A DNA stretch of 64,000 nt from Clostridium sp. Marseille-Q2269 (GTDB lineage: Bacteria; Bacillota; Clostridia; Clostridiales; Clostridiaceae), in NCBI RefSeq assembly GCF_943736985.1, contig NZ_CALSFS010000020.1:1-64000 (forward strand). Reading direction: 5' to 3'. The notes below the pieces were generated by a model that was given only the letters and a program-made list of their open reading frames with translations, was not told the origin of the DNA and did not search any database. This document shows, piece after piece, positions 33,945 through 42,039 of this stretch (position 1 is the stretch's first letter; every line of letters starts with the position of its first letter). The position numbers were made by a program, and so were the translations under genes.

Positions 33945-34075
33945 AGCTTAAGTTAAATATAATCTTAGATTTTATTTTGTTTTATATACTTATCTTAAAT
34001 ATAATTTAGAATTTTATTTTGTTTTATATATTTACTTTAAATATAATTTAGAATTTTATTTGTTTTTTTAGATTT
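33945..34075. repeat. 42-bp tandem repeat, about three copies
   Basis: TTAAATATAAT recurs at 33953, 33995 and 34037 with exact 42-bp spacing. The rest of the unit (TTTAGAATTTTATTTTGTTT) is well conserved. Non-coding. Confidence 0.85.
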
Positions 34076-39781: not shown

Positions 39782-39954
39782 TAATATCACCTCATAAAAA
39801 AATAAAAGACAAATTAATTATAACCTATGAATACTATATTTTCTAATAGAATAATATAAATAAAGTAGGTAAATGATAGATAAATAGATTATTTATAAAT
39901 TTTATTTCTCTTTCAAATTTTGGTATTATATAATTGTTATAGGGGGAAAGAGCA

Positions 39955-40545
39955 ATGAAGAACTTGAACGATATGAATAGCCAAGAATTAGCCAAATACA
40001 TAAAAGATACAGAAAATCAAATACATAACTTATTAGATGAATACATAAATAGGGTTAACAATAGAATAGATAAAAAGAAAAGCGCCAAAACTTTAAAAGA
40101 GAAAGCATACGCATTAAGTAAATTATATAAATATGTGGAATGGGTAAATGATGGTATAGAAATGAATAATAATGTCAAGAATAGGATTAGGATAGTTCCT
40201 AAACGAGGTGAAGTTTGGACTTGTGAACTAGGTCAGAATATAGGATCGGAAGAGAATAAGATTAGACCAGTTATTATTATACAAAATGACACAGGAAACC
40301 AAAATGCACCTACAACCATAGTAGTACCTATTTCTAATAGACCAAAGAAAATAGCTGTACATATTTCCATAAGAAATGGAGATTTTGAATTAGTTAAAGG
40401 TGAAAAAATGGAAATAACAGGAACAGTTTTAGCAGAACAGATACGAATAGTGTCAAAAGCTAGATTAGGAAGACATGTAGCTACTTTATCAGACAAATTT
40501 ATGGAACTTTTGGATTCCAAGATAAAAATTTCGCTGGATTTGTAG
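39955..40545 (+). CDS. MazF/PemK-like protein with N-terminal helical extension
   Basis: 196 residues. About 80-190 is a PemK/MazF fold: PKRGEVWTCEL, NKIRPVIIIQND (R104 at the catalytic Arg position), TTIVVPISN (T120/T121 at the catalytic Thr position) and ITGTVLAEQIRIVSKARLG. Residues 1-78 are predicted helices not found in a minimal MazF of about 115 residues. No small antitoxin gene lies before or after it. The extension could be a built-in antitoxin or a partner-binding part. GGGGGA precedes the ATG. Confidence 0.85.
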   Translation: MKNLNDMNSQELAKYIKDTENQIHNLLDEYINRVNNRIDKKKSAKTLKEKAYALSKLYKYVEWVNDGIEMNNNVKNRIRIVPKRGEVWTCELGQNIGSEENKIRPVIIIQNDTGNQNAPTTIVVPISNRPKKIAVHISIRNGDFELVKGEKMEITGTVLAEQIRIVSKARLGRHVATLSDKFMELLDSKIKISLDL

Positions 40546-40603
40546 TAAAAATAAAAAATATAAAGAAATTTATAAAAAAATATTAAATTTTTATAAATTA
40601 ATG

Positions 40604-40632
40604 TTGTATAATTTTTCGGTTAATGCTATAAT
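40604..40632 (+). promoter_or_regulatory. Promoter of the tandem-motif RNA
   Basis: TTGTAT (40604-40609), 17-bp spacer, TATAAT (40627-40632), giving a start near 40639. Confidence 0.6.
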
Positions 40633-40638
40633 AACAAT

Positions 40639-40777
40639 TGTGTTAAAGCGAAACATACCTAGCAGAGGTTAGGAGATTATATCTCATATATCCTTTCTTA
40701 AAATTGAATAACATACTCGGCATAGGTCGAGAGATTATATAACATATCATAGGACTGATTCTAAATCAGTCTTTTTT
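40639..40777 (+). ncRNA. Candidate structured RNA with two copies of one hairpin motif
   Basis: Two units 58 bp apart share AACATA, a 4-bp stem, an 8-nt loop and AGATTATAT. Unit 1 has stem CCTA/TAGG with loop GCAGAGGT (40652-40682). Unit 2 has stem CTCG/CGAG with loop GCATAGGT (40710-40740). The stems differ but remain paired (compensatory change) while loop and flanks are kept. A terminator follows at 40753-40777, and a sigma-A-like promoter precedes. No coding potential was seen. Not recognised as a known riboswitch or sRNA family. Confidence 0.65.
40753..40777 (+). terminator. Terminator of the tandem-motif RNA
   Basis: GACTGAT/ATCAGTC (40753-40759 with 40765-40771), then TTTTTT. Confidence 0.85.
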
Positions 40778-41010
40778 GCTTTTTTTATTTATTATTAAGA
40801 TATTTTTACTAATTGTCAAGGCATTCCTATTATTTATAGTGCCTTTTAAAATCATAAGTAAACAATTCTCGAAAAAATAGAAAATATTGGTTCGAATTTT
40901 AAACATTTTGTAATATAAATTAAACTTCTTTGTAACAGAGTTCTTCAAAAAAACTAGTATTATTAAACTATGAAATACATTTGATGATGAATTTGAGGAG
41001 GTAGATATAT

Positions 41011-41334
41011 ATGAATAGACAGAAGATAGCTTCAATAGTATTATCAGCAGCAATATTATCAGGAGCAGCAGCTACTCAAGTTAATAATGTAGTACACGCA
41101 AGTAATATCAGTGTCAGCTGTAAGCACAAACAATAAGGTAGGAACAGTAAGTGCACCGTCAGGATTAAATGTAAGAAATGCTTTAAATATAAGAAAAGGT
41201 TCAAATATAAACTCACAAGAGTAGGAACTTTAAAAGCGGGCACTAGGGTTACTATATTAGGAGAAGAAAATGGTTGGTACAAAATAAAATTCAATAAAAG
41301 CTTTGGATATGTATCAAAAGCTTTTATAAAATAG
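41011..41334 (+). pseudogene. SH3b-domain secreted protein, frameshifted
   Basis: GAGGAGGT precedes the ATG at 41011. Frame 1 reads a signal peptide (ASIVLSAAILSGAAATQ) and stops at TAA after 42 codons. Frame 2 continues with NKVGTVSAPSGLNVRN and LNIRKGSNINSQ. The original frame then resumes with VGTLKAGTRVTILGEENGWYK and GYVSKAFIK to TAG at 41332-41334. Two compensating indels (near 41107 and 41217) split one short SH3b protein related to the SH3 repeats of the 3866-6268 gene. Confidence 0.85.
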
Positions 41335-41494
41335 TTAAATATAAGACAATAGTTTGAAATGTAAAATTTATATTAGAATATGGTATAAGATATTTAAAAT
41401 AAAAAAAGAAATTTTATTTTAAAACTAAAACCCAAAACATTATATTAAAATATAAATAGACCATTATAATAAATAAATATATATATATACCAGC

Positions 41495-41544
41495 AACATT
41501 AAAAATAAGTTCTTTGCATAATCAGAGAGCTTATTTTTAATGTT
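41495..41544. terminator. Hairpin terminator
   Basis: A 15-bp stem AACATTAAAAATAAG/CTTATTTTTAATGTT (41495-41509 with 41530-41544), between the SH3 remnant and the YaaR gene. The plus-strand exit is only moderately T-rich. Confidence 0.65.
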
Positions 41545-41613
41545 ACTGCTATATTTTTATAGGAATTTTAGTTATAATAAATATATCATACAAATAACTA
41601 ATGAGGTGATTTA

Positions 41614-42039
41614 GTGGAAATTAAAAGAGTAGGTTCAAATTCACCTATACAATCAGAAAATAAAAGATCAGTAGAAAATAAAAGAGGATTTTCACAAAAT
41701 TTTAATTTTGCTCGCCAAAAAAAGTCAGAGCAAGAATTAAAAAATATGTTAGATAGTATAAAGAAAAAAGGAAATAGATTAGCTATAACAAAATGCTATG
41801 CTGATGTTAGGGCATATAAAAGAATGATAAAAGAATATTTGAAATCTGTTTTGGAGTATATGTATTCTGTAAAAAAGGATATAAGTTTTTGGCAAACTCA
41901 ATATTTTATTACAGTAGAAACTGTAGATGAAAAATTAGAAGAATTAACAGAGATGCTTATAAGTTCAGAAAAAGAAAATTTAGATATAGCTAGAACTATA
42001 GATGATATAACAGGACTTATTGTAGATATATACAAGTAA
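41614..42039 (+). CDS. YaaR-family (DUF327) protein
   Basis: 141 residues matching the DUF327/YaaR family: QELKNMLDSIKKKGNRLAITKC-type region, RAYKRMIKEYLKSVLEYMYSV, and DDITGLIVDIYK at the end. It is mostly helical and soluble. The function of the family is not established. The start is GTG, 7 nt after GAGGTGA. It is monocistronic, with a terminator at 42119. Confidence 0.85.
   Translation: MEIKRVGSNSPIQSENKRSVENKRGFSQNFNFARQKKSEQELKNMLDSIKKKGNRLAITKCYADVRAYKRMIKEYLKSVLEYMYSVKKDISFWQTQYFITVETVDEKLEELTEMLISSEKENLDIARTIDDITGLIVDIYK

Follow-up and report, generated by a model that had tools for sequence, protein, structure and literature searches.

The DNA considered here, called the window throughout, is a stretch of 64,000 nucleotides from Clostridium sp. 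Marseille-Q2269 (contig NZ_CALSFS010000020.1, positions 1 to 64,000, forward strand) with a GC content of 26.7%. It carries a gene for a MazF/PemK-type protein that is followed, on the same strand, by two copies of a short hairpin motif lying between a promoter-like site and an intrinsic terminator. Comparison with related genomes and with phages makes the small RNA predicted from this arrangement a candidate antitoxin of the MazF protein. The parts of the locus are as follows.

39955 to 40545, + strand: mazF/pemK gene, 196 aa, with an N-terminal extension (residues 1 to about 80) and a PemK_toxin domain (residues 83-194; PF02452, E 1.4e-27).
40604 to 40632, + strand: promoter-like site, read from the sequence, made up of TTGTAT (40604-40609), a 17-bp spacer and TATAAT (40627-40632).
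40639 to 40775, + strand: predicted small RNA of about 135 nt, which lies between the promoter-like site and the terminator and is conserved in 21 relatives.
40652 to 40682, + strand: hairpin unit 1, consisting of AACATA, a 6-bp stem with a 4-nt loop, and AGATTATAT; supported by covariation and matched by the one-unit RNA model R2 at 48.6 bits, the unit itself being part of the training set of R2.
40710 to 40740, + strand: hairpin unit 2, matched by R2 at 45.5 bits and likewise part of its training set; among relatives 5 of its 6 pairs change on both sides.
40751 to 40773, + strand: intrinsic terminator, the only one found in 39900-41700.

The two units lie 58 bp apart on the + strand and are identical in 22 of the 23 columns outside their 4-bp arms, while the arms differ in sequence and are paired in both. 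Of 100 first-order Markov sequences of equal length, none held a pair (spacing 31-199 bp) better than 18/23. Thus the claim of an earlier note, made from the letters of this DNA, that one hairpin motif occurs here in two copies 58 bp apart was borne out. The sole other pair listed by the script in the window, 20/23 at 33961, is a low-complexity AT repeat; the surrounding segment (33950-34070), located between two open reading frames (ORFs), is AT-rich and repeats in tandem about every 42 bp.

Homologues of the motif exist in other genomes and their stems covary. A two-unit alignment (A1) was built from the window and 20 of 21 relatives, leaving out locus L031, in which a second unit is degenerate. 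Unguided, these 21 RNAs fold into two 6-bp hairpins with 4-nt loops, with compensatory changes in 7 of 12 pairs. When the structure was imposed on the same alignment, 98.4% of paired cells were complementary, compared with 90.8% in shuffles (a value reached by 0 of 500), and the count of pairs changed on both sides was reached by 8 of 500 shuffles. Similarly, all six pairs change on both sides across 54 single units, a result reached by 4 of 500 shuffles; here 98.3% of cells were paired as opposed to 84.1% in shuffles, and no slid version of the structure came close. All of these shuffle controls leave the relatedness of the sequences in place. The typical host unit is made up of CATA, the first stem arm, a loop whose last base is mostly G, the second stem arm, AGATTATAT, two further bases and CATA. 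Because the outer bases of what the earlier note took for an 8-nt loop closed by a 4-bp stem in fact pair and covary, the stem has 6 bp and the loop 4 nt; its observation that pairs are kept while the bases differ holds for all six pairs.

The promoter-like site combines a perfect -10 hexamer (TATAAT) with a weak -35 hexamer (TTGTAT), and the RNA would be expected to start near 40639. A stricter promoter scanner run over 39900-41700 made no call at 40604-40632, the -35 being too weak. In a simple scan that resolves ties toward a 17-bp spacer, 18 of 22 loci (the window and 21 relatives) have a promoter-like pair, with a TTG -35, whose end falls 15-23 nt before unit 1. The scores of single loci barely exceed those of shuffles (8-10 compared with about 8), and the argument for a promoter is therefore its constant position. 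The promoter that had been proposed for the RNA is thus retained as a promoter-like site, and the terminator proposed to follow the units directly was recovered. In the relatives, a lenient scan finds a hairpin with a T-rich tail after the RNA, which is poor or misplaced in L031 and L043.

The link between the RNA and mazF was followed through two samples, one of 391 genomes of one class and one of 206 genomes of one family, that of a single class-level relative. The class sample holds four full-length relatives of the MazF protein (57-60% identity), each with the motif just 3' of the gene on the same strand. In the family sample a full-length, N-extended MazF is found in 21 genomes (E up to 1e-30; 53-73% identity), and the two-unit RNA lies 3' of mazF on the same strand in all 21, with 51-154 nt between the stop codon and the first unit. 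At L031 (genome G552) the whole RNA is duplicated 3' of mazF, and the degenerate second unit belongs to the first copy. RNA models of two units (R1) and of one unit (R2) match every one of the 21 genomes that carry this MazF and not one of the remaining 185 (Fisher 4e-29); since both models were trained on these loci, and R2 also on phage copies, the positives arise by construction and the 0/185 is the informative part, with the reservation that it was obtained under the stricter filters of the search program. In the class sample R2 matches 5 of 391 genomes, namely the four with MazF and one weak match (G027, 34.4 bits) that is likely due to chance. Nineteen other MazF/PemK loci, three of them plasmid-borne, have no match to the RNA models. 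An exact-pattern scan of genome contigs returned 6 matches, by estimate about the number expected by chance, and the same pattern gave 0 matches in viral contigs. A DNA-similarity search of the RNA in plasmids found no relatives, and PADLOC gave no meaningful match.

The genes around the pair are not constant. At the 22 loci, the ORFs of at least 60 aa that lie up to 1.5 kb away sort into seven sets, while mazF stays with the RNA throughout; therefore the RNA belongs with mazF and not with the genes downstream. No terminator was found between mazF and the RNA in any of the 22 loci. No small ORF within 420 nt upstream of mazF is common to more than 5 of them, and no conserved protein antitoxin was found beside mazF among the flanking ORFs and small upstream ORFs of these loci. 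The SH3-domain gene 3' of the RNA in the window (41013-41335, + strand) looks broken, as had been claimed, with an open piece that matches SH3_3; it falls outside the conserved unit, although it had been put forward as what the RNA might control. In L028, the nearest relative, the gene after the RNA is of the DUF327 type, in place of the SH3 gene.

Among solved structures, those closest to the protein of the window belong to MazF enzymes (for example 4mzm and 4mdx) of the S. aureus MazF and B. subtilis EndoA type. In an alignment of 22 MazF proteins (A4), R104 and S127 are invariant; aligned to the solved structures, R104 corresponds in S. aureus-type MazF to the RPV-motif arginine and S127 to a threonine, positions that we take to be the catalytic pair of MazF. 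Residues 1-80 are less conserved than the rest, with a mean share of the commonest residue of 0.52 compared with 0.84, and a Pfam scan with E up to 0.001 assigns them to no family. A structural model of poor quality hints that this extension may form two long helices (residues 9-40 and 44-73), for which the mean predicted local distance difference test score (pLDDT) over blocks of 10 residues reaches 77.

The hairpin also occurs, as a single copy, in prophages and viral contigs, which was seen in this analysis and was absent from the earlier note. Outside the mazF loci, R2 finds seven more single units; they are spread over 4 of the 21 MazF genomes, and the 185 others have none (Fisher 8e-5). 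Two pattern scans of viral contigs gave 30 further loci, 18 of which R2 matches at E up to 0.1. The resulting table holds 24 loci, of which 21 are distinct after the exact duplicates L084, L163 and L166 were dropped; L078 (weak, 26.6 bits) and the 12 viral loci not matched by R2 were left out, L082, a doubtful locus within an ORF, was kept, and L088 (a near-duplicate of L076) and two copies in L125 that have one gene in common were counted as distinct. A gene resembling phrog_3928 lies at most 1.1 kb downstream on the same strand at 15 of the 21 distinct copies and on the opposite strand at none, and by script a terminator-like hairpin stands just upstream in 13 of the 21. In PHROGs searches all 3 tested products of the small gene (L127, L123, L080) proved to be phrog_3928, all 3 tested products of an upstream gene (L127, L125, L085) were assigned to phrog_36, a transcription regulator, and the product of a downstream gene of L125, the one tested, was named a terminase small subunit. 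From these labels we infer that the hairpin site is the start of a late operon. A DNA-similarity search with one phage copy found no relatives in phages and plasmids, and MazF relatives in viral contigs amount to 3 loci that match the MazF domain only.

Relatives of phrog_3928 occur in 47 of the 206 family genomes, and the leaders of 30 such loci were fetched. Of the 8 loci from genomes that carry this MazF, 3 have the hairpin, and none of the 22 from other genomes does (Fisher 0.014). One of the latter, L141, ends just upstream of phrog_3928, which leaves 21 informative MazF-free loci and 0 hairpins among them (Fisher 0.015). By eye, several phrog_3928 leaders have the terminator-like hairpin followed directly by a ribosome site. 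The phrog_3928 product (L123, L124, L125, L127, L129 and the viral loci) is a protein of about 60 residues encoded ahead of packaging genes, often with a terminator-like hairpin before it, and may be part of a late-transcription switch. At L085 the phage hairpin copy (2801-2832) lies directly behind a tRNA-Asn gene (2723-2799).

Based on this comparative record, we consider it probable that the RNA is a type III-like antitoxin of this MazF and that phages have copied it as a decoy. The strict link to mazF, the repeated unit, the lack of a conserved protein antitoxin and the phage copies all fit this reading. It corresponds to one of the options in the earlier note, a repeat-type RNA antitoxin for the preceding MazF-like protein, and is the one that the evidence favours, given that the RNA adjoins mazF in 21 of 21 genomes and its models match 0 of 185 elsewhere. 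A second option, that of a small RNA bearing two binding loops, agrees with the anatomy but left the binding partner unnamed.

As proposed, the module would have two parts: an RNase of the MazF type that possesses an additional N-terminal domain, and an RNA of about 135 nt with two copies of the hairpin. The RNA would be made in excess, both from its own promoter and, because no terminator separates gene and RNA, as the tail of the mazF message. The hairpins would bind the toxin directly and hold MazF inactive, as type III RNA antitoxins do. If host transcription stopped, for example on phage infection, the RNA would decay, the RNase would be freed and the infection would be aborted. Temperate phages, in turn, would have placed a copy of the hairpin before their packaging genes, such that late lytic transcription would yield a decoy antitoxin.

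Several observations weigh against this proposal. The order of the parts is reversed relative to type III systems, the RNA being 3' of mazF with no terminator between (22/22 loci) and with a promoter-like site between (18/22). No pseudoknot was seen among the predicted nested hairpins, no pseudoknot search having been made. In the two-unit alignment, further pair types are no better than in shuffles (119 of 500 reach the observed value). The single-sequence AlphaFold2 model of the MazF protein is too poor to use (mean pLDDT 42.3; predicted template modelling score 0.25). Six of the 21 distinct single copies have no phrog_3928-like gene nearby, and the absence of the hairpin from 5 of the 8 phrog_3928 loci in MazF genomes indicates that phages do not always need it. 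An orphan unit in L126 (5822-5853, genome G526) has no evident prophage around it; by eye, it lies about 1.3 kb downstream of a gene resembling DNA polymerase IV. Finally, the sampled genomes are related, so that the Fisher values overstate independence, and the comparison of MazF with the phage copies covers those in the sampled genomes.

The alternatives differ in what they make of the hairpin. It could be a cleavage site, with MazF cutting U^ACAU at the foot and thereby processing both its own RNA and the phage leaders, and with phages using the enzyme to trim or stabilise late messages. UACAU opens unit 1 in 20 of 22 loci and is found in 15 of the 21 distinct single copies, and the nearest solved homologues of the protein, S. 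aureus-type MazF and B. subtilis EndoA, are enzymes that cut U^ACAU. However, no unit 2 among the 22 loci opens with UACAU, nor does unit 1 of the window or of L028, and prophages in MazF-free hosts keep a similar leader with no hairpin, so that processing is not needed there. Processing at the hairpin foot is thus possible but not general, and as an account of the whole element we regard it as unlikely. Alternatively, the RNA could regulate other targets in trans, or be the partner of a different host protein, with mazF merely linked to it genetically. The link between RNA and protein is indeed a comparative one, and on average the RNA shows no excess pairing with the start region of the mazF message (21 loci, L031 left out; z from -2.59 to 2.53, mean -0.09), which would allow for action elsewhere. 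But the RNA models match no genome in the family sample of 206 without this MazF, in spite of the seven sets of flanking genes, and we judge this explanation distinctly unlikely.

If the hairpin were instead a phage regulatory element, acting in antitermination or translation control, the host RNA would be a captured copy that titrates a phage factor. The frequent position of the phage copies between a terminator-like hairpin and the next gene would suit such a role, whereas the strict link to mazF would go unexplained and the hairpin is absent from all 22 fetched phrog_3928 loci without this MazF, 21 of them informative; this we consider improbable. The tandem riboswitch or attenuator acting on the downstream gene, suggested in the earlier note, would account for the structure and the repetition of the RNA and for the terminator after it. 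Nevertheless, the flanking genes change while mazF stays, the downstream genes are not conserved over the seven sets, the RNA has its own terminator and no Rfam riboswitch matches it, leaving hardly any likelihood for this idea. A DNA operator in place of an RNA is also disfavoured: the arm sequences vary with pairing kept, and where a phrog_3928-like gene is near (15 of 21 distinct single copies) it always shares the strand of the unit.

Taken together, these points leave an RNA antitoxin as our preferred reading. More tentatively, and with somewhat less than even confidence, we suggest that the module represents a new class of RNA-protein toxin-antitoxin system, in which a true MazF would be held by a downstream two-hairpin RNA instead of by MazE and would serve in phage defence, with an RNA anti-defence element, expressed in the lytic cycle only, in the late-operon leader of temperate phages of Clostridium-like hosts. 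If this is true, a MazF restrained by an RNA would link type II to type III systems and show one fold changing its kind of antidote. The phage copies would then be a natural, recurrent form of RNA mimicry against host defence, known mainly from phage PhiTE and its escape mutants (PMC3475682). At 32 nt the hairpin is of a size that suits direct binding tests, which makes the idea easy to test.

How the module stands next to known systems can be considered from the side of the RNA and from that of the toxin. At gathering thresholds no Rfam model matches anywhere in the window; at E up to 10, four chance-level hits fall within 40550-40800. In loci L028-L047 the Rfam matches are to rRNA and T-box families only (L008-L011 lying outside the scan). 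The pemK RNA motif (RF02913) is an RNA element associated with pemK-type genes. This 61-position motif has no match at the window locus or in L028-L044; it was found in one of 5 genomes searched (G553, C1:2467555-2467655), a genome that also carries the module described here, and at a place different from the locus of the module. MazF is the textbook type II toxin, restrained by a protein. The protein of the window resembles type II MazEF in its MazF-type RNase domain and conserved catalytic positions, and no conserved partner protein adjoins it in the 22 loci. A type I arrangement was likewise rejected, there being no excess antisense pairing on average with the start region of mazF, the region compared. 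Among the literature matches listed, no published case of a MazF with an RNA antitoxin appears.

Type III systems pair a MazF-fold endoribonuclease with a repeat RNA that lies upstream of the toxin gene, with a terminator between them (PMC5086642). The module is like ToxIN, CptIN and TenpIN/AbiQ in that a MazF-fold RNase, assigned here by sequence family (PF02452 and solved MazF homologues), stands next to a tandem-repeat RNA, with two units in the window and the 21 relatives apart from the degenerate second unit in the first RNA of L031; a phage RNA that mimics the antitoxin is known from the type III side and is proposed here. It differs from them in that the RNA has a promoter-like site of its own and two simple covarying hairpins, and in its putative toxin, an N-terminally extended protein of the PemK/MazF family of Pfam, for which a Pfam scan at E up to 0.001 listed no ToxN-family model. 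Since the RNA does not lie 5' of the toxin gene under one promoter with a terminator between, we do not file the module as type III, only as one that would work like it. For the phage side, the pseudo-ToxI of PhiTE mimics the antitoxin of the type III system ToxIN, with 1.5 repeats in the wild type and more in escape mutants (PMC3475682).

The closest parallel for the RNA comes from Clostridioides difficile, where RCd22 has two motifs, is made as a 132-nt full-length transcript and neutralises AbiF by direct binding (PMC12373285). That system differs from the module in its toxin, an Abi_2/AbiF protein linked to ancestral Cas13, and in having the RNA before the gene; the toxin here is PemK, and the only Rfam hits are the four chance-level ones, to other families, the presence of the abiF model in the library being unchecked. 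In both, however, the RNA is about 130 nt long, contains a short hairpin motif twice ahead of its terminator and adjoins the gene of a toxic-type protein. By analogy, RCd22 with AbiF is the best precedent for reading the RNA of this locus as an antitoxin.
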